Shown piece by piece: positions 1,741-53,217 of a stretch of DNA of 64,000 nucleotides. This DNA comes from Physcomitrium patens (taxonomy: Eukaryota > Streptophyta > Bryopsida > Funariales > Funariaceae), in the NCBI RefSeq assembly GCF_000002425.4, contig NC_037271.1, positions 12,098,786-12,162,785 on the forward strand, in the 5' to 3' direction. The position numbers and the translations under genes are program-made. Numbering within the stretch: position 1 is the stretch's first letter; each line of letters starts with the position of its first letter. Under the pieces are notes generated by a model. The model was not told the DNA's origin and made no database searches. It saw only the letters and a list, made by a program, of their open reading frames with translations.

Positions 1741-2163
1741 ATGGAGAACCAACAACCAGCAGATTCGACTTAAGAGCCTTTATTTGCTGACCTACCGGAC
1801 GAGACATTATGATTGTCACAACCTTCAAGACGACGTAATCAAGATGAAGATCTTCAAGAACGATATGTTCTTCCTTGAATAGATGGCAAAATATAATGCG
1901 TTTGGTATCATGACTTAGGAAGGGACTCCCGATGTTTGGTGATTTTACTAGAGGTAGGAACAATTCCTGATGGTGTTCCAAATATTCTATTCGAAGGAAG
2001 TTATGAAGGCATCAACAATGATCAAATAATTGAGTGGTCTTCCCGCCCTGGTATGGGACACTACTGATGGTTGAGAGGCCCTATCAATCATCTTCGAAGA
2101 CTACAAAGATTAGAGTATGTGACAAATACAATTCGTCGCATCATAGATTTCTTCAACATATGA
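1741..2163 (+). pseudogene. Unassigned third ORF (ORF3) of element E, 423 nt with internal stops
   Basis: The frame runs from ATG (1741) to TGA (2161), exactly 141 codons, between the chromodomain stop and the polypurine tract. The same frame, with identical length, occurs in the four other copies (31724-32146, 36592-37014, 47477-47899 and, on the minus strand, 38437-38859). In this copy it is broken by in-frame stops that match CAA or CGA in sister copies, so they look like C-to-T changes. Conserved pieces include LFADLPDETL near the N-terminus, RDSRCLVILLE in the middle and WLRGPINHLRR near the C-terminus. No signal peptide, membrane segment or known catalytic motif is visible. I do not recognise the family. 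Confidence 0.75.
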
Positions 2164-7840: not shown

Positions 7841-10800
7841 ATGCCTAGTCTGGGAGCCGTGAGACGCTCAGGCAGCATGGAGACCTTACGTCAATCCCCA
7901 TCTCTTTGTCGCGCTGCCGACGTGCTTTATTTGCTCGGTCGTGGCGCCCAGCTTGAGCATCTTCACATGATAAATGTACAGTATGCATCTCATCAACCGG
8001 GCCCTACTTTTAAAGGTATTCAGCCTACACCCATTTTTTATAAAAATCATTTAGTCACTTTTTTTAATCTTTTTTCTATTTTTTTCGCATCTAGACTGGA
8101 TTTCTTTTCACAGCTAGACTACATTTCTCTTCAGAGACATGAATTCATGTTTGGAGTTGTGTTTTATAAAATCTCGCTCTATCTTTTTCTCTCGCGCGCT
8201 CGCGCGCACGCACACTCACACACACGAACATATATATATGCCTGATTTTCTTGCAAGTGGTGGTTTCTGTGAGTTTGTCGATGACGTATACCTGCTATGA
8301 GAATGAGCGGACTTGTGCTTAAACACTGGCTTAAAGATTATTGGGCTTCTGTGCTCCACAATTAAGACTTTTTGGCGTTTCAGATGTAAAAAATCGTTTA
8401 ATCGCGCTGCGCGGCAGCGGAATGCCAGGCTCGTTTTCTTGGTCTTACAAAAGGTATTAATCTCCTTTTAAATTCGAACCCCCTTGTTTGTTTTTTGAGT
8501 TGATCTCATTGAATGACGAGGTAGACTGAAACTAGGTAATTTCAACGTGTGAATGGGTTGCTAAATTATCAAAAACAGTTCTGCTTAAATTGGCACATCC
8601 TCTTGTGACCTACAACTGTGAGGTCCTTGATGATGAAACAGGAATTACAAGGACACGTTCATCTGGTGCGATTTGTTCGACGATGATTTCATTCTCCCTC
8701 TTTGCGAGACTGGCGAGTATGTCTTGAAAGCTTTGGAACTCTTCAATGCGTCGCAAGGTGCGTTAGAGAATGAAATTTGCTGGTTTATCACAGCCTGCAA
8801 TAGATTATGATTGATTCTCTGTGGCATGATTTTTCAACTAGCTTGCACAGGGAAAGCAGATATAGTACGACTTATTCTCTGTTTCTCCTTTGCGCTGTGG
8901 CAGATAAAGATGTCGAATGTAAAGAGTTACACATGCCAACACAATCCCTGCCCATTAGGAATTCTAGAGTCAGTAGCCCAGTCAAGCCATTAAGATCTTC
9001 TACTTGGGAAGAGCAATTTGACTTAGAAAGCGAAGTCTCCATGGCAATCAAGAAGAGTTTGATCCTCATTAGTGATGCTGGTAATGTCACCTTTGACAGC
9101 AGCTTGAACTTGAGCAAGCAGACTATGAATAAACTTTCTCATAACAAGAGAGCGCTTGAAGTTGGTCACTTAGATCATAGTGATATCTCCAATACTGGCA
9201 CATACGCCTCACTCGACGCAGTTGAGAACCAGCAGTTTCCTGATCAGCAAAGATCCAAGTGCAATGCAGCCAGAACAGAAAAGGCCACAGAGGCTAAGCC
9301 GTGCTATGCAAGATCGCAAACTGTGCACAGAAAGACTTCAATTCAAAGGGGTGCCTGTAGCAGAGGCATATCTCCTGCAGTAGGAAATCCAGGCGAGGAT
9401 ACGGACTATCCAAGAAATGAAATGAGGGGCGTTGTACCCATGGCTGGAAATTCTTTAATAGCAAATCAATGTAGTGCGGGCTCACAAACGTCTTTCAGAG
9501 AGACGTCGCTACAGGGGGGAGTTGCGAAGGATTGCAACGAGTTGGTAGACCGTTCGGCAGCCGCAATCATCAAGAAAGATGAAATGTTAGCCTTTTCTTC
9601 CTCTCCGACCACGATCCCAAATGCGAAGAGAAGAACGTGGGAGAAGGAGATTAACAAAGACAACATGTGTACAGGACTTAGCCAAAGTAAAAGCTCCGAC
9701 GATGAGCATCTCAGCCCTCATAGGGAAGTCCATAAATCAAGTTCGCCATGCTTATCTGCTTCCGATGATCCGTTCTTGTACAACGTATTGCGAAAGGCAA
9801 CCAGGCTGGGAAGTCCTAGGCCGCGGATGTGCAGAGGAGTTGATGTCGTTAATTCAACTCGAGCCAGGACGAAGATGCACTTCAGAAGCAAACCAAGGGA
9901 AGTTGGCATTGAAGTCTCTAAGAAGCCTGAGAGGCAGCCAAAATGTTTGGTTGATGAGACTTCAAAGAACAACAATTCCTGTTCAAAATCTCCAAAGATA
10001 CATAGCAGCTACACCTCTTCAGAAAGGCCTGCGAAAGAACTCAAGTCACTCTCCCATTACTTTGAGACCAGGGAGAGAACTTCATCCGTTATCAAGCTTA
10101 TGAGTGAAACGCCATCCATAGAAGAAAAACCTAGGCAGCAGTTGATCAGCGTTCAAGCAGACCCTCAAGCACTTAGTGATGCTGCTCTTGCTACTAACCC
10201 ACCTCGCCCAGAATTCCGATCTTCTGGCAATGACGCTCTTGATGCTTCTTACAGGAAAACTATGGAAGTCCTTGCCAAACTTCCAGTTCGAGGAGTAAGT
10301 TAAGTTCACACAACTCCTCAGAGAAATAATTGCAGATGCAGTGATACGTGTAGTGTCAGAAGCAGAGGAACACAGGTTCAGATCCGAATTGGAAGGCAGT
10401 AAGCAAGGGCCGAAATTTGACACGAAGAGCTCCATGGCGTGTGCGCTTTCACCCAGGCAAGTCCCCGCACCAAGGGTTGAACATGATGCTCACAATTCAT
10501 GCTCTATGCACAACACGCACGGTAGAACTGCTGCAATAACCCTAGAGGAGTCCTCAAAGAACAAGTCTTCGAGGCAGAGAAGACCAAATTCCAAGAAACC
10601 TCTAGGAAAAAAAAATAGTAGCTCACTGCATTTGATTTCCAGGTATGGATTACTCAGTCCTTGAGTCACGATAAACTAATCCAAATACAATTTAGGAAAA
10701 AATGGAATCAATGTTAAAAGAGGATTATTGACCACTCAAAGAAGGTTTAAGACAGCATCTTTACAGGCACTCTGTTGTGACATGCATTAAAAAGAGACTG

Positions 10801-26380: not shown

Positions 26381-26918
26381 TGTCACGGATATACATATAA
26401 TTATCTACAAGAGTCGATAAAAATATGTAAAAGTAGATAAAAGTAGGTTAATTATGCAATATCTTCTAGAAAAGCTTCCTAGAAGCTTCATAGATGCTGT
26501 TTTGACCTTATAGGAGTCCATAGTTGACTTTTAGGTTAGAAACTTGGTCAACAAGTTAGCCATGTACCACACATGTTGGTAGCTTGAAGGACAAGCTAAC
26601 TACGTAGTCCACTCATAGAAAACTTGCCTTGCAAGCAAAGACATGTGGCCTAGAAAGTCAACACATATTAGAGGTCTTATAGAATATCGCCACGTGGCTT
26701 CTAGTTAGATAGTATATATAGAGGCAAGAGTGAAGCTCTCTTCACTCTTGTCAACTCCTTTCTTGCTTCTAGTCTAGTTTCAAGGGTCTTTAGTTTTCTT
26801 GTCTTTTGGCAATAGCCATTCCAGTTTTTCTTTCAATATATATATTTGTTTATTTACCTCTCTTTGAGTGAAGGCTCACTTGTCTGAATTATTTTTCATC
26901 GAGTTCTTGTCCATGACA
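26381..26918 (+). repeat. 5' LTR of element D
   Basis: 538 bp, TGTCACGG to CCATGACA. TATATATA is at 26713-26720 and the predicted RNA start ACTCTTGTCAA at 26744-26754. An 11-bp inverted repeat, CAAGAGTGAAG (26725-26735) and CTTCACTCTTG (26740-26750), spans the start site around a 4-nt loop. Confidence 0.96.
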
Positions 26919-26920
26919 GA

Positions 26921-26931
26921 TTGACAAGAGT
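26921..26931 (+). other. Self-primer binding site of element D
   Basis: TTGACAAGAGT lies 2 nt after the LTR and pairs over all 11 nt with the predicted RNA 5' end (26744-26754). This is the arrangement of the Tf1 self-priming mechanism, in which the first 11 nt of the transcript are cut off and used as the primer. Function here is inferred from position and complementarity. Confidence 0.75.
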
Positions 26932-27129
26932 ACACTTACAATATCAGAGCTTTGTTTTTCTTGAGTAAGAGTGGATTACTCCTTTCTCTTGACAAGACAT
27001 AAGCGTATTAGAAGTTTGAGGATTACCCACTTCTAAACTGATATTGTTCTTAGTATCTTCTTTGTTATCAAGTCTTTCTTTTCTTTTGTCTTGAGGAGTA
27101 TCAAACAAATTTTTCTTCTTATTGTCATT

Positions 27130-28134
27130 ATGGCAGAGCTTGTTGAAATGAAGAGTGCAATGGCACAAATGCAAGAGCAAATGAGGGAGTTAATACTTGC
27201 GATGCATCAACTCAATTCACCAATACAGGAAAGAACAAGAATAGCAGAAAGTGGGGATATAGAGATAATCGGAGCTGCTTCAACATCTGCAACAAATCAT
27301 GTTCCTTCTCCAATTGTACAACACCCTATAAGCACTAGAGAACCAAGAATTGCCTTACCCGAGAAATTTGATGGTACGAGATCAAAGTTTCGAGGGTTCA
27401 TCAATCAAGTACAATTGGCAATCGAACTTCAACCGCAAAGCTATCCAACTCCAGGATCACAAGTCAGGTTTATTGGCACTCTACTTTCTGGTTCTGCATT
27501 ATCGTGGTTTTCGTCTTTTCTTGAACAACAAAATCCAATATTGGATAATTTGGAAGCTTTTTTGGCGGAGTTTCGATCTATGTATGGTGAACACGATGCA
27601 ACTCGTGTTGCAACAAATAAGATCCAAATTCTGCGACAAGAAAATCACTCAGTAACAGTGTATGCTTCACAATTTCGACAACTTGCAATTAACATCAAGT
27701 GGGATGATGCTGCACTCATCAGTCAATTTCTTTATGGATTGCAATACGAAGTAAAGAAATTGATGCTCAACTTACCTGATCCTCAAACTTTGAGTCAAGC
27801 AATCGATTTTGCGGTAAAATGTGATAATCAACTTTTCAAATTTTGATCCGAGAATCATTCACGGGAACCTCAACGTTATTACTCAATGGCAACATCAACA
27901 TCTTTGCCTAACGTACATTTGGAAGTAGAAGACATGCAAATTGACGCGGTACGTTTTAAACCCCTAAATGAGCAAGAAAAGATTCGTCGTCGTCAAGAAG
28001 GATTATGTTTATATTGCGGAGAACCTAAGCACACTGCTCAACATTGTCCAAAGAAACGATGCAACTATAAAATGAGGGTTACGACGGTCAAAGAAGAGAA
28101 CATGTCGGAAAACGGATTCGTCCAGCTACAATAG
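27130..28134 (+). pseudogene. Gag (capsid and nucleocapsid) of element D, one premature stop
   Basis: ATG at 27130 (MAELVEMKS) is conserved in copies B and C and was preferred to the longer in-frame start at 27091. The capsid part (KFDGTRSKFRGFINQ, ALSWF, DPQTLSQAIDFAVKCD) is the retrotransposon Gag type. TGA at 27844-27846 replaces a CGA seen as CGA in B, so capsid and nucleocapsid are separated. After it, the zinc knuckle C-x2-C-x4-H-x4-C (CLYCGEPKHTAQHC) lies at about 28009-28050. The Gag frame ends at TAG 28132-28134, which all well-preserved copies share. The protein coats the RNA in virus-like particles. Confidence 0.92.
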
Positions 28135-28139
28135 GGACC

Positions 28140-31100
28140 ATGCAGCTGGAACCTTGTACAATTCCTAATGAAGGTCCTATCCTCTCCTCAGAACCCTCTC
28201 CTTGTTTTATAATAGACTTATATTTAGGACCTAAGAATTACAAAGCCTGTGCTTTATTAGATTCGGGAGCCTCAACATGTTTTTTAGATGAACAATTTGT
28301 TAAAAGTCGTAAAATACCTTTTGTACAGAAACCTAAACCAGTACATGTAGAAGTCATAGATGGTCGTCCCTTGTCTTCTGGAGATGTCACTCATAAAACT
28401 CATCCTATAAAAGTAACAATAGACGGTCATGATAGCTATATAGCTTTTAACATAATTAAATCCCCGTCCAATCCAGTTATTTTAGGTTTATCCTGGCTAG
28501 AAAAATATAACCCTCGAATAGATTGGAATTCACGTAAACTTGACTTTTTCCAGAGCGTTATTAATAGTTCTATCAACCAAGTAAAAAAATTATAAGTCTA
28601 GTATAGTAAAACCCGTACTGATAGGTACAAAAGTATTTATACACGCAGCAAAAGAAGGATCAACTTTTGCTATTTATGCTGCACCTATTTTTGAAAACGT
28701 AAAGACTTCAAGTGGCATTCCAAGTCAATATCAGGAGTATCAAGACGTTTTTGAAAAAAAGAATGCAGATATTCTTCCTGAGCATCGCCCATATGATTGT
28801 TCAACCGACCTCAAGGAAGGAACTCAACCACCATTTGGATCAATTTACAGTTTATCGCAAGATGAGATGGCTGAACTTAAGACATATATTGACGAGAATT
28901 TAGCGAAGAATTTCATACGCCATTCAAAATTTCCAGCAAGAGCTCCAATTCTATTCATAAAGAAAAAAGATGGATCTTTACGAATGTGTGTTGATTATCG
29001 AGAACTCAACAAGATCACAATCAAGAACAGGTATACATTACCTTTGATATCAGGACTCCTTGACCAGTTGAATCAAGCTAAGATCTATACAAAAATAGAT
29101 CTAAGAGGAGCATATAATCTAGTACGGATCAAAGAAGGAGATGAATGGAAGACTGCGTTTCGAACCAGGTATGGACATTTCGAATATAATGTCATGCCCT
29201 TTGGACTCACGAATGCACCAGCTGCTTTTCAACATCTCATGAATGATGTATTTCATGAATTCTTAGACAATTTTGTCGTGTGCTATCTAGACGATATCTT
29301 GATCTATTCTAAGAACGTCGAAGAACATGAAATACATGTTCGTCAAGTATTACAAAAACTTAGAGATGCAGGATTGTACGCCAAGATGGAAAAGTGTGTA
29401 TTTCACACTACTCAAGTTGACTTTTTAGGATATATTATTTCAAATGATGATCTCATGATGGATTCTAAGAAAGTCCAAACAATCATGGATTGGAAGATTC
29501 CAAGGACAGTAAGAGATGTCGAATATTTCTTGGGATTTACCAATTACTATCGGATCTTCATCAAAGATTTCTCACGAGTTATAGCTCCACTTACATGCTT
29601 GACTAGTAGAGACAAATTCCAATGGAATCAAGAAGCGGAAGTAGCATTTGAAGCCTTGAAGACATCGTTTGTCTCTGCACCAGTCTTATATCGTGTTGAC
29701 TTTTCCAAGGCATTTTTTATGGAAACAGATGCATCAGATTTTGCCTTGGATGCAGTTTTATCACAAATGGGAACAGATGACAAACTTCATCTGATAGCTT
29801 TTCATTCAAGAAAATTCTCAGCAGCCGAGATCAATTATTAGATCCACGATAAAGAACTTCTTGCGATCATGGATTCTTTTCAAGAATGGCGTCATTATCT
29901 AAAAGGCGCTTCTAGTCTAGTCACTGTGTATACAGATCACAAGAACCTCGAGTATTTCATGTCAGCACACATGTTGAATCGTCGTCAAGCTCGTTGGAGT
30001 ATGTCTTTGTCAAGATTCGAGTTCATTATCACTTATCGACCAAGAAAACAACAAGGTTTATCTGATCCCTTATCTAGACGTTCTTATTTTGCACCAAAAG
30101 AAGGAGATGCACCTTTTGAGCAATAAAGAATGGTCCTCTTGAAACCGGAGCAATTTCATCTCCAAACAATGAAATCAACATTGACTGTTGATTCAACTTT
30201 TCTCAAGCAAATCCAATCCAGTATGTCCTCAGACCCTCTTGTTCATGATATCGAGAATAATTCTTCCAAGTCTCATGATCCTTCTAAGTTTGAATTCAAG
30301 AATAATCTATTATATTTTGAAAGACGCCTATATGTTCCAGAAGGAGAAGTACGTTTACATGTTCTTCAAGCAGGTCATGACTTTCCAGCAGCAGGGCACT
30401 TTGGATATAATAAGACTTTGGAACTCATATCAAGAGATTTTTGGTGGCCACAAATGTGGAAGTCAGTCAAAGACTTTGTACAATCATGTGATATTTGTTC
30501 AAGATCAAAAATTCCTCGTCATCGACCTTACGGACTTCTTTAGCCATTACCTATACCACAACAACCATGGTCTTCTGTTTCTATGGATTTCATTAGAGAT
30601 CTTCCAAGCTCAAGATCTTATGATTCTATATTTGTGATAGTAGATCGTTTCACCAAGATGGCACATTTTGTGCCATGTACAAAATCTATCACAGGTGAAG
30701 AAACAGCTAAGTTTTTCATTGATAATATCTATCGCTATCATGGATTACCTAAAGATATCATATCGGATAGGGGAACTCAATTTGTGTCAAGATTCTGGAG
30801 GACCCTTTTCAAGATTTTAAAAGTGGACATAAAGCTATCTTCGGCTTTCCATCCTCAAACTGATGGACAAATAGAGCGCGTAAACCAAGTCTTGGAGCAA
30901 TATTTAAGGTGTACTATCAACTATCAACAAGATGATTGGACAACCCTTCTGCCATTGGCAGAGTTTGCTTATAATAATACGGTACATTCTTCCACGTAAC
31001 AAACACCTTTCTTTGCCAATTATGGCTATCATCCACGACTTGATACTTATGATTTTTCAAAAGTTGATAATCCTACAGCAGAAGATATGGCAAATCGGTT

Positions 31101-31629
31101 GTCAGAGTTACATGCAATAATGAAGACGTAATTGAAGGAAGCTCAAGAACGACAAAAGATAAACGCAGATCTATATCGTAAGGAGCAACCACAACTCAAC
31201 GTGGGTGATAAGGTATGGCTACTTCGTCGCAATATCAAGACTACTCGAACTTGTGACAAGTTGGACTATCGTAGGCTTGGCCCCTTTTCTGTTTCTGAAC
31301 AGATCAACCCAGTTGCATATCGGTTACATCTACCGGAGTCAATGAAGATCCATCATGTATTCCACGTGTCTCTTCTTGAACCATATAAGACAGTGGATAT
31401 AGAAGGAAGAAGACAAATGCCACCGCCTCCTATAGAAGTAGATAATAATGAAGAATTTGAGGTGGAAGAGATATTAGACTCGAGGCGGCGCCGAAATAAG
31501 CTGAAATATCTTGTTGATTGGCGCGGATATGATATTAGTGAACGCACATGAGAGCCATCCAGGAATCTAGCAAATGCATCAGCTAGAGTCAAAGTTTTTC
31601 ATCAACGACATCTATCAAAATCAAGATGA
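28140..31629 (+). pseudogene. Pol polyprotein of element D: protease, RT, RNase H, integrase, chromodomain
   Basis: Pol lies in the -1 frame relative to Gag. Domains: aspartic protease with LLDSGAS (about 28254-28274); reverse transcriptase with the catalytic YLDD at 29284-29295; RNase H from METDASDF (about 29720) to 30060; integrase with its zinc region (about 30380-30510), DDE core (about 30580-30910) and GPF-type module (about 31285); then a chromodomain (about 31450-31600) with EFEVEEI, YLVDWRGYD and E-R-T before the lost Trp, keeping F/W/Y at the aromatic cage positions. Breaks: a one-base insertion in the A-run near 28587-28592, and stops at 29839, 30124, 30541, 30997, 31129 and 31549, most of them C-to-T or G-to-A. 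The natural end is TGA 31627-31629. Confidence 0.93.
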
Positions 31630-31723
31630 TAATCTCTCTTATAAAAGAGACAAGATTGAGGCAAGATAACATTCAATTTCCTATCCTTGTTTGTAACTTC
31701 TTTGCATTTGTGATGCTAATTAG

Positions 31724-32146
31724 ATGGAGAGCCAACAACTAGCGGATTCAACTCAAGAACCTTTGTTTGCTGACTTACCGGATGAGACATTGCGATTGTC
31801 ACAACCTTCAAGATGACGCAACCAAGATGAAGACCCTCAAGAACGACATGTTCTTCCTCGAATAGATGGTGAGATACAACGCATTTGGTATCTCGACCTT
31901 GGAAGAGATTCTCGATGTTTGGTGATATTACTGGAGATAGGAACGACTGCTGATGGTGTTTCAAATGTATTATTTTAAGGAAGTTATGAAGGCCTCTATA
32001 ATGATCAAATAACAGGGTGGTCTTCTCGCCATAGAATGGGACACTATCGATGGCTAAGAGGACCCATCAACTACCTTCGAAGAGAACAGAGATCAGAGTA
32101 TGTAGCAAATACAATTCGCCACATATTAGACTTTCTCAACATATAA
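31724..32146 (+). pseudogene. Unassigned third ORF (ORF3) of element D, 423 nt, two internal stops
   Basis: From ATG 31724 to TAA 32144-32146, 140 codons. It begins 94 nt after the pol stop and ends about 28 nt before the polypurine tract. This is the least damaged copy in the window: one stop is TGA where a sister copy has CGA, and one is TAA where sisters have GAA. It is rich in charged residues. Conserved pieces are LFADLPDETLRLSQPSR, RDSRCLVILLE, GHYRWLRGPIN and the C-terminal DFLNI. No signal peptide, transmembrane segment, zinc motif or enzyme signature is visible, which speaks against an envelope protein. Unknown function. Confidence 0.78.
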
Positions 32147-32173: not shown

Positions 32174-32187
32174 AGAAGGGGGGATAA
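32174..32187 (+). other. Polypurine tract of element D
   Basis: AGAAGGGGGGATAA directly abuts the TGTCACGG of the 3' LTR and is identical to the tract of element E. Confidence 0.9.
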
Positions 32188-32725
32188 TGTCACGGATATA
32201 CATATAATTACCTATAAGAGTCGATAAAAGTATGTAAAAGTAGATAAAAGTAGGTTAATTATGTAATATCTTCTAGAGAAGCTTCCTAGAAGCTTCATAG
32301 ATGCTGCTTTGACCTTATAGGAGTCCATAGTTGACTTTTAGGTTAGAAACTTGGTCAACAAGTTAGCCATGTACCACACATGTTGGTAGCTTGAAGGACA
32401 AGCTAACTACGTAGTCCACTCATAGAAAACTTGCCTTGCAAGCAAAGACATGTGGCCTAGAAAGTCAACACATATTAGAGGTCTTATAGAATATCGCCAC
32501 GTGGCTTCTAGTTAGATAGTATATATAGAGGCAAGAGTGAAGCTCTCTTCACTCTTGTCAACTCCTTTCTTGCTTCTAGTCTAGTTTCAAGGGTCTTTAG
32601 TTTTCTTGTCTTTTGGCAATAGCCATTCCAGTTTTTCTTTCAATATATATATTTGTTTATTTACCTCTCTTTGAGTGAAGGCTCACTTGTCTGAATTATT
32701 TTTCATCGAGTTCTTGTCCTTGACA
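32188..32725 (+). repeat. 3' LTR of element D
   Basis: 538 bp, TGTCACGG to CCTTGACA, followed by the target duplication TTTAC. TATATATA is at 32520-32527 and ACTCTTGTCAA at 32551-32561, spacing 31 bp as in the 5' LTR. Confidence 0.96.
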
Positions 32726-36591: not shown

Positions 36592-37014
36592 ATGGAGAAC
36601 CAATAACTAGCATATTCGACTCAAGAGCCTTTATTTACTGACTTGACGAACGAGACATTACTATTGTCACAACCTTCAAGATGATGCAATCAAGATGAAG
36701 ATCTTCAAGAACGACATGTTCTTCCTTGAATAGATGGTGAGATACATTGTGTTTGGTATCATGACTTGGGAAGGGATTCTTGATGTTTGGTGATTTTACT
36801 AGAAGAAGGAACAATTTCAAATGGTGTTCTAAATGTTCTATTTGAAGGAAGTTATAAAGGCCTCAACAATGATCAAATAACTGAGTAATCTTCCTACCCT
36901 GATATGAGACACTATCGATGGTTAAGAGGCCCTATCAATCATCTTTGAAAAGAACAAATATCAAAGTATGTGGCGAATATAATTTGTCACATCATAGATT
37001 TTCTTAATATATGA
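36592..37014 (+). pseudogene. Unassigned third ORF (ORF3) of element B, 423 nt with internal stops
   Basis: Same length and position as the other copies: ATG 36592 to TGA 37012-37014, with no net indel. Stops have replaced CAA, CGA and TGG codons. Conserved pieces such as DLGRDS, EGSYKGLNNDQIT and RWLRGPINHL are readable. Unknown function. Confidence 0.72.
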
Positions 37015-38436: not shown

Positions 38437-38859
38437 TTATATGTTGAAAAAATCTATGATGCAATGAACTATATTCACTTCATACTCTGATCTTTGTTCT
38501 CTTCGAAGATGATTGATAGGGCCTTTCAACCATCGATAGTATTCCATACTAGGGCGGGAAGACCACCCAGTTATTTGATCATTGTTGAGGCCTTTATAAC
38601 TTGCTTCAAATAAAATATTTAGAACTTTGTCAGGAGTTGTTTCTACCTCTAGTAAAATCACCAAACACCAAGAGTCCCATCCAAGGTCGTGATACCATAT
38701 GCGTTGTATCTCACCATCTATTCAAAGAAGAACATGTTATTCTTGAAGATCTTCATCTCGATTTCATCGTCTTGAAGGTTGTGACAATCGTAATGTCTTG
38801 TTTGTCAAGTCAGCAAATAAAGACTCTTAGGTCAAATATGCTAGTTATTGGTTCTCGAT
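38437..38859 (-). pseudogene. Unassigned third ORF (ORF3) of element C, 423 nt, start codon lost
   Basis: The frame begins at 38859, where ATG has become ATC, and ends at TAA (38439-38437), again exactly 423 nt. Internal stops sit at positions that are Gln or Arg in sister copies, and the TGA before ID is shared with B and E. A frame on the opposite strand (38601-38867, plus) is open but is read as a shadow. Confidence 0.7.
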
Positions 38860-47476: not shown

Positions 47477-47899
47477 ATGAAGAAACAATAACCACTAGAT
47501 TCAATTGAAGAACTATTACTTGTTGACTTATCGAAAAAAATATTGTGATTGTTACAACCTTGAAGATGATGTAATTGAAATGAAGATCCTCAACAACAAC
47601 ACGTTCTTCCTCAAATAGGTGGCGAGATACAACATGTTTGATATCACGACTTTAGAAGAGACTTCTAATGTATGGTAATTTTATTAGAGGTAAGAACAAT
47701 TCTTGACAATATTCTAAATATTTTATTTGAAAGAAGTTACGAAGGCCTCAATAATGATTAAATAATAAGGTGGTCTTCCTGCCTTGGTATGAAATACTAT
47801 CAATAGCTGAAAGGACTTATTAACCATCTTCAAAGAGAATAAAGATCAGTATATGTGGCAAATATAATTTGTCGCATCTTGGATTTTCTCAATATATAA
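47477..47899 (+). pseudogene. Unassigned third ORF (ORF3) of element A, 423 nt with many stops
   Basis: ATG 47477 to TAA 47897-47899, again exactly 141 codons, in the copy with the most decay elsewhere. About ten internal stops are present, yet the frame has no net indel and can be followed codon by codon (HVLPQI, SYEGLNND, INHLQRE, DFLNI). Confidence 0.7.
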
Positions 47900-51252: not shown

Positions 51253-52753
51253 TCAAATGTGTATTAAATCTATAGATTATTTTAAAATTATCAGGTATTT
51301 ATAGAAACTTCTTTTATAATTTTTTCACATTTAGAAACCTCTTATAGGATTGATTTACAACTAAGTTGCTTAAACTACAAATCTTTGATTTTTGGGAACT
51401 TTTACAAAAAAAGATACTATATATGAAAGCAAGATTATGGCCATCTTTGATTATGTCTTTGCATTCTTTGTATTTTGGTTTAATTCAAGTTTCTCTTATT
51501 ACTTTTCATTTAATAATATTTACAACATGTTCATCAAGTTCTAAGTCGGTTCCTTCCAACCTCAACTTTCTTTCACAAGTCAAAAAGAATAGAAAAGAAA
51601 ACAAACAAACAAACAAAAACCAAATTGGGTTCAATGGAGAGCATCTTTTGCCACTTTTGAACTTAGCAACATATCAAATTGGTATTCAAGTGCTTCACAT
51701 CAGTTGCTAAAGCACACAACAAGAGAAGAAGCTGGTGGTAATTCCTTGCATGAAAATGCAACACTCTCCAGCTCCTCATTAATTGAAACAATGCCATCTC
51801 TTGTTTCGACCAACAGCACTATATCTTAGAAGAGGATTCAGGTGAGCAAGGTGAGGAAGAAAAACATGATCAGGTCCAAATCTCTCGACGTGTGAGCTGA
51901 TCAGGAAAATCAGTAGCTTAACGTGCAGAATGGAGGAGAAAATTGCACCGTTTTATGCTGTTTCTTATCTTGTTGACAAAATTGTATTTTGTGATGACGT
52001 TTTAGCGTTGCCGTCTAGTAGGATCACTCAGGCCCTGCAAAGGACTGTATTCATGGGTGTCCTCCGAGAACAGAAGGTCTGTGCATCATGTGTCAGACTG
52101 TTGATTACAAGCTTTCAAACCAGCTTTCGAGCGTTGGTTGTTGTAACAGTCGCATGCAGTTCAATGGACTCCTCCATGAGGTCAACTGGGTTGGGAATAT
52201 CATTGAAGAATATCGGCAGTTGCTCGCTATCTGGTGCCTCTGGTAGTTAAAATCTTGAATAGTGTTTCGTCTCGTCAGTTTCGCTCACTGTCCCTTTGCT
52301 ATCACATAAATAACTATGTCAGTTTTCAGGTGCTTTGAGTGTCTTATGCAAGGGTGGGCAATGTCAGTTAAGGGCTCAATCCACGTAGGGGATCTCAGTG
52401 CATCGGATTAATGTGAGCGACAGCCTCAAGAGGAGCCAAACATTTTGCATTCACAGCCAATTCGCTTTTCCATCACGGAGATTGCAAAACTTTATTTATA
52501 TGTTCTTACAGCTATGTAGTTTTTATAAATCCGCACGGACCGAGACAATATGGGTGTCGCCAAACATCTTGTGCACACGGCGACAAAGTTCTGTATGCAC
52601 TTAGGTTGACTATCGATCGTCTGGCTTAATCTATAGAGGACATATCTCCAGTTCTGTAAACTTAGAAATCAAAACGCAGCAACACACCAACTGTCCGACG
52701 TAAGAGTAACATGCGTCGCGGCGCAAATGTTTCTATATTGATCGATATCAACA
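50849..52753. other. Intergenic DNA between the solo LTR and the nsLTP gene
   Basis: AT-rich to about 51700 with a (TA)n run at about 51226-51252, then moderate GC, probably including the 3' UTR of the minus-strand nsLTP gene near its right end. A minus-strand stretch 52239-52115 reads as 41 codons of normal composition after a splice-acceptor-like site, but it has no known homologue that I recognise (see findings). Confidence 0.5.
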
Positions 52754-53217
52754 CTACTGGCCTCCTGGAATGACGACACCTGCACATATGATAACGGATC
52801 GACCACGTTCGTCATGTCACATTGCGCATGAGATAACGGAATGTGCAAAAACAAGACATGAGAACACGAAGGTGAACGACGAGGTTGTAAGACAATCGTA
52901 CCGTTGCACACGATGCCAGCCTTGTAGGTGAGTTGGCACTTCTGAGGAATGTATTTTGCGAACTCCACTTTGGCGCCTGACTGCTGTTGGCTACTCGCGG
53001 CAGCGCAAAGGCAGTCCTCGCCGGTGTTCGTGGCGAAGGAACTCAATGCTCTGCAGCATGCTGCGGAGGGTTGGACGTTCGCTTTCGCCGCCGGCAAGCA
53101 CGGCGCTAATATCGACAGATTTCTGCCTCCGCATTGCGCTTGGGATTCGACGTTCACCACGGCGCTGAGTCCCACCAGCACCACTAGCAGCAACACGACG
53201 TTCATTTTCATCGCCAT
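52754..53217 (-). CDS. Non-specific lipid transfer protein, 113 aa
   Basis: Two exons, 53217-52902 and 52779-52754, with a 122-bp GT-AG intron. They join in phase to give a C-terminus VCNGVVIPGGQ typical of the family; unspliced reading gives an unrelated 69-residue tail, so the splice is preferred. A signal peptide covers about residues 1-27 (MAMKMNVVLLLVVLVGL...). The eight-cysteine motif is complete: C29, C40, C54-C55, C69-x-C71, C94, C104, forming four disulfides around a lipid cavity. It is secreted to the cell wall; members carry fatty acids or phospholipids and serve in cuticle formation or defence. It is divergently arranged with MCM4. Confidence 0.94.

Follow-up and report, generated by a model that had tools for sequence, protein, structure and literature searches.

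An open reading frame under purifying selection between pol and the 3' LTR of moss chromoviruses

Do the chromoviruses of mosses carry a protein-coding gene downstream of pol? The question is raised by a window of 64,000 nt of the Physcomitrium patens genome (the whole stretch of DNA that was analysed), in which an earlier note, made from the letters alone, described five copies of a 423-nt frame, here called ORF3, and took it for a new accessory protein of one element family. All five copies are present (Table 1), and their MAFFT alignment has 423 columns and 0 gaps. As the note had stated, the ATG is found in four of the five copies, with ATC in its place in the minus-strand copy, and TAA or TGA stands at codon 141 in all of them. 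When the window was searched by profile in all six frames, with X standing for stops and E allowed up to 10, only these five places came up; each is the 3' end of a copy of the same Ty3/gypsy element.

Table 1. Coordinates of ORF3 and of the parts of the youngest element copy within the window.
Feature	Position	Strand	Remarks
5' LTR, youngest copy	26381..26918	+	98.5% identity to own 3' LTR over 541 nt
Self-primer stretch within LTR, 11 nt	26744..26754	+	complementary to nt 3-13 past LTR, 26921-26931
gag region	27130..28119	+	Retrotrans_gag, Ty3_capsid (27121-27846); end approximate
pol region	28140..31629	+	protease, RT, RNase H, integrase, SH3_Tf2-1, chromodomain
Candidate internal promoter TATAAAAG, pol-ORF3 spacer	31640..31647	+	84 nt upstream of ATG
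ORF3, youngest copy (c31724), 140 codons	31724..32146	+	two internal stops, codons 31 and 85
Polypurine tract, upstream of 3' LTR	32174..32187	+	
3' LTR, youngest copy	32188..32725	+	
ORF3, second copy (c1741, subfamily B)	1741..2163	+	five internal stops
ORF3, third copy (c36592)	36592..37014	+	six internal stops
ORF3, most diverged copy (c47477)	47477..47899	+	ten internal stops
ORF3, inverted copy (c38437m)	38437..38859	-	start lost, five internal stops

In the youngest copy a spacer of 94 nt separates the chromodomain from ORF3, behind which comes the polypurine tract. Its pol contains stops and runs over more than one frame, and the Pfam domains were found on separate pieces. Integrase followed by a chromodomain, as expected of a chromovirus, was found in the window pieces and in locus L041 (Chromo E 3.4e-17). 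After the 5' LTR the element carries the self-priming signature of the Tcn1 clade, with a pairing of 11 nt in the window (0 of 2000 controls were as long) and of 11-12 nt in three copies of a second element group. We refer to the window's protein family as group 1 and to this second, Physcomitrium/Ceratodon family as group 3. The named protein matches come from P. patens and Ceratodon purpureus, in keeping with the non-seed plant or fungal hosts of the Tcn1 clade.

In all four copies examined for self-priming (the window copy and L061-L063) the pairing begins 2 nt past the LTR, and its letters differ between group-1 and group-3 elements on both pairing sides. The three group-3 copies also keep TGGTATCAGAGC 23 nt past the LTR, which we take to be the plant initiator-tRNA-Met primer site; together with the self-primer pairing this gives two adjacent priming signals in these copies. 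The leader (26919-27129 in the window, 1308-1600 in L061) is partly conserved between group-1 and group-3 elements, and contains repeated AGAG..TGGATTACCC..TCT-type motifs, which might fold into hairpins. Elsewhere the window holds a lipid-transfer-protein-like host gene (52669-53217, minus strand; LTP_2 E 5.9e-11) and a 498-aa open frame (8807-10303) for which a Pfam match was absent at E 0.001.

The window copies are open to the reading that ORF3 is non-coding and has stayed open by chance or slow decay. Internal stops occur in all five of them, and frame 0 holds 3-11 stops per copy, the terminal one included, against 8-13 in the other two forward frames; one antisense frame is equally low, with merely 2-6. 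The earlier observation that the stops face CAA, CGA, TGG or GAA in sister copies applies to 17 of the 19 internal codon positions, where the sister codon (CAG was also seen) is one base away, and breaks down at positions 29 (TCA) and 32 (CGN/TGN). The argument formerly drawn from missing indels proved weak, since the element bodies carry few gap openings: relative to the youngest copy there are 2 in 2,207 nt of c1741, 7 in 4,194 nt of c36592, 14 in 5,270 nt of c38437m and 26 in 3,694 nt of c47477, within whose ORF3 frame blastn places one compensating gap pair. The absence of indels from ORF3 is poor evidence because indels are scarce throughout c1741 and c36592, and because 14 openings in 5,270 nt predict just one per 423 nt. 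We posit that single copies decay neutrally after insertion, which would leave stop-ridden copies like those of the window.

The genomic copies, however, speak against a chance frame. Of the 40 genomic copies that match c31724 best, itself among them, 24 encode the full 140-aa frame and 25 are stop-free in frame 0, whereas every one of the 40 has a stop in each of the other five frames, antisense included. With c1741 as the query, 40 copies were scored and 30 fetched; once the window's own is set aside, 29 remain, of which 10 likewise encode the full frame. Both sets hold the best-scored of 5,767 (c31724) and 8,663 (c1741) first-look candidates, so that these are not whole-family fractions.

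Between intact copies of subfamilies A and B (240 pairs) dN/dS has a median of 0.09 (range 0.05-0.18; dS 0.56, dN 0.053), in the kind of comparison that the earlier note had proposed. A permutation test with methylation-context-matched mutations that keep the mutation spectrum (64 pairs, 300 shuffles each) showed amino-acid changes to be in deficit in frame 0, where P did not exceed 0.003 in any pair, and not in frames 1 and 2 of the A x B pairs. For seven A copies, in a comparison that overlaps the intact-copy set, dN/dS was 0.10 for ORF3 (29 B copies) versus 0.25 for the 3' piece of pol (integrase/chromodomain; 25 of the 29 B copies, four gapped ones being dropped). Stop-free copies gave 0.09 for ORF3 (4 x 10) versus 0.23 for the pol piece (4 x 8). 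Because the figures for all pairs and for stop-free copies are so similar, the selection signal is not created by the choice of intact copies.

Within the window, the youngest copy compared with three others shows frame-0 selection (P <=0.0215 in both directions); none was found in pairs with c47477 or among the older copies. One off-frame window pair gave P 0.0085 in frame 1 in one direction and 0.063 in the reverse. Among the 40 near copies, shared variants showed no more than a trend (P 0.07) and singletons no signal. Between the subfamilies ORF3 is under strong purifying selection, and we regard it as very likely to be a selected accessory gene. The neutral look of changes among the older window copies and the general scarcity of indels would suit a frame left open by chance or slow decay, but the deficit of amino-acid changes confined to frame 0 and the shared core of diverged homologues make such a frame most improbable.

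These homologues fall into three groups. The search that yielded groups 1 and 2 retained 276 of 280 candidates at E<=1, of which the best 120 became entries; group 2 comprises entries P0026-P0120 plus P0236 and P0238-P0240, and is known here from proteins alone. Two further searches, which brought in group 3, retained 49 of 49 and 126 of 1,427 candidates at E<=10, the entries of the latter being the best 120 of 126. Among the matches listed, three entries are named C. purpureus, a moss of a different subclass from P. patens, and P. patens UniRef 'Predicted protein' entries match the window ORF3 at up to 86%. Most group-2 proteins have 136-169 aa, with a mean identity of 82% within the group and of 37-39% to group 1; in group 3 the full-length entries that bear the name of P. 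patens or C. purpureus have 115-117 aa, and their relatives reach 151 aa. The database record of one moss-like ORF3 protein (P0016), from a 549-base contig, names the bacterium Kitasatospora herbaricolor as its source, probably through contamination.

Profile comparison connects all pairs of the three groups at 99.3-99.9% probability. Their common core reads LVI(L/V)(L/F)xV ... GHYRWLxGP(I/M)xxL, and they also share a W and a C-terminal stretch predicted as helix. Between groups 1 and 3 the identity of ORF3 averages 33% (40% at most), versus 65-79% for the integrase/chromodomain pieces; ORF3 therefore diverges faster between groups, though it is tightly held within one. The notion of a new accessory protein is supported by selection and by intact homologues, and its restriction to the one element family has to be given up.

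In other P. patens chromoviruses this position is taken by the diverged sister group 3. The best-ranked 150 of its 14,516 candidates were scored, and a stop was counted by eye in 12 of these 150 rows. All of the 20 best loci, each encoding a protein identical to the query, show the same-strand order chromodomain, spacer, ORF3, purine tract and LTR start TGTCA. The same order is present in seven of eight group-1 loci, among them the window's own, and the eighth misses only the strict purine pattern. With 20/20 and 7/8 loci, ORF3 lies between pol and the 3' LTR and is kept in many copies, as is characteristic of a sense 3' aORF. In Ceratodon, too, it would appear to precede an LTR, as read from the end of one protein (P0124) and not from DNA; a search of genome contigs and viral contigs for the ORF3 context elsewhere gave no locus. 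RLG1 elements reportedly account for 47% of class I space in P. patens and are expressed in protonema (PMC7466625); the abundance of the group-3 element suggests that it is RLG1. The self-priming signature and the host point to the Tcn1 clade, and we are highly confident that ORF3 serves such moss chromoviruses as a functional accessory gene.

What kind of protein does this gene encode? Profile searches agree with the earlier view that no known domain is present: Pfam (best E 0.027 in one member) and a PDB sequence search (best E 0.28) gave nothing above noise for ORF3 proteins, and NCBIfam gave 0 matches for five of them. Two AlphaFold models, with mean pLDDT values of 43 and 56, gave no usable fold. 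No catalytic signature was recognised. An envelope-like gene might be expected from the location between pol and the 3' LTR, where env-like aORFs are described (PMC7264820). However, none of the four proteins tested has a membrane-spanning hydrophobic segment (top 19-residue hydropathy 1.39), as the earlier note had said, and together with the small size of 115-151 aa and a Pfam search with nothing above noise this renders an envelope-like gene extremely unlikely.

Since ORF3 follows the chromodomain, it might also have been split off or duplicated from the end of integrase (its C-terminus) or from the chromodomain itself, and SM1-Galahad is described as having its chromodomain in a separate short ORF (PMC3350952). 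Yet a chromodomain match is present beside ORF3 in 20/20 group-3 and 8/8 group-1 loci, and comparison of ORF3 with chromodomain profiles gave 0.33% probability (with only two, identical, chromodomain rows); we consider such an origin very unlikely. A captured host gene fragment, passively carried, would be in line with the heterogeneous extra ORFs of plant elements, which probably have several origins (PMC6317226). It is hard to reconcile with strong selection between subfamilies and with match names that, among the matches listed, are only hypothetical, predicted or uncharacterized protein without a Pfam domain, and we give it very little credence. A single-copy host relative may exist.

With regard to expression, the distance from the pol stop to ORF3 is 94 nt in the window copy and 126 nt in L041. 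The frame of ORF3 differs from that of pol in the window copy, and in L041 it is the same but lies behind further stops. ORF3 thus needs its own start, because the pol stop and spacer and either a frame change or further stops precede it. We posit that a separate short RNA would serve for its translation, the simplest source of which would be a TATA-box promoter in the spacer. In 38 of the 40 near copies TATAAAAG stands 84-85 nt ahead of the ATG, TATAAA is found in the spacer of 28 of 29 subfamily-B copies, and the spacer block at the would-be start site is well conserved. The spacer of L041 has CATAAAAAGG alone, at about -97. The statistics for a spacer promoter are modest, as shuffling one spacer 5000 times produced TATAAA in 503 cases, and equal conservation between subfamilies is seen for 13 of 89 six-column spacer windows. 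In the youngest copy (31635-31650) the TATA motif lies inside an inverted repeat, TCTCTT-ATAA-AAGAGA.

Alternatively, ORF3 could be a nucleic-acid-binding helper of nuclear import or RNA export (Rev-like), spliced to the AG before its ATG. An AG abuts the ATG in all five window copies and in 29/29 subfamily-B copies, TAG precedes it in 38/40 near copies, and a bipartite NLS pattern is present in 49 of 59 group-3 proteins. The same pattern, however, is found in 0/13 group-1 and 0/99 group-2 proteins, the AG of group 3 sits two or more bases ahead of the ATG, and the donor-like GTAAG of the youngest copy's leader is not kept in two other copies (by eye). Expression by splicing may still occur; a Rev-like, spliced helper as a whole is rather unlikely.

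As to the role of a selected ORF3, its product may be a small adaptor without enzymatic activity, which would contact host factors and most likely ease silencing or nuclear steps for the element. A host-facing role fits because ORF3 diverges faster than integrase between groups; the sequences of the three groups do not jointly point to a nuclear role, the NLS pattern being limited to group 3. We put forward the small host-facing accessory protein, with silencing or nuclear steps as its most likely target, as a tentative reading that has somewhat less than an even chance of being right. The more far-reaching idea, in which ORF3 founds a retrotransposon-specific family with its own internal promoter, counters silencing or steers nuclear life and helped to fill the P. 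patens genome, is speculative and on balance improbable.

The titles and abstract openings found in the literature make no mention of ORF3. A large plant survey of 2019 counted extra ORFs from 250 codons up, a cut-off by which ORF3 would be missed (PMC6317226). An 'add. ORF' of unknown function appears in a figure legend that does not state the element (PMC2864245), and this may be an earlier sighting of ORF3. The earlier statement that chromoviruses carry no further gene was too strong, as the cited passages describe a 5' aORF in Tekay elements (PMC11728184) and two short ORFs past gag-pol, one of them its chromodomain, in SM1-Galahad of Selaginella (PMC3350952). Extra chromovirus ORFs are thus already known from Tekay, and ORF3 is a further variant. 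It matters as a selected gene that seems to have escaped notice in a model plant, where the retrotransposons carrying it are very abundant, and its elements offer a tractable system for studying what LTR elements need beyond gag and pol.

Among known systems, the Tcn1 clade (PpatensLTRs of P. patens and SM-Tcn1 of Selaginella) likewise combines a chromodomain, a moss host and self-priming (PMC2864245; PMC6317226). The cited passages of these papers describe gag and pol, whereas the ORF3 elements have a third gene, and by the lengths given about 140 nt are left in the lycophyte SM-Tcn1, seemingly without room for ORF3 (PMC2864245). The 5' aORF of Tekay is likewise an extra conserved chromovirus protein, and an NLS is reported for it; by its description it differs from the small, 3' ORF3 in its 5' position, its length of about 400 aa in sunflower and its long disordered regions (PMC11728184). 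The sense 3' aORFs of plant LTR elements share the orientation of ORF3 and its place between pol and the 3' LTR. As far as the cited passages describe them they are env-like, in contrast to ORF3, which is small, lacks a membrane segment and forms one family spanning several element groups (PMC7264820).
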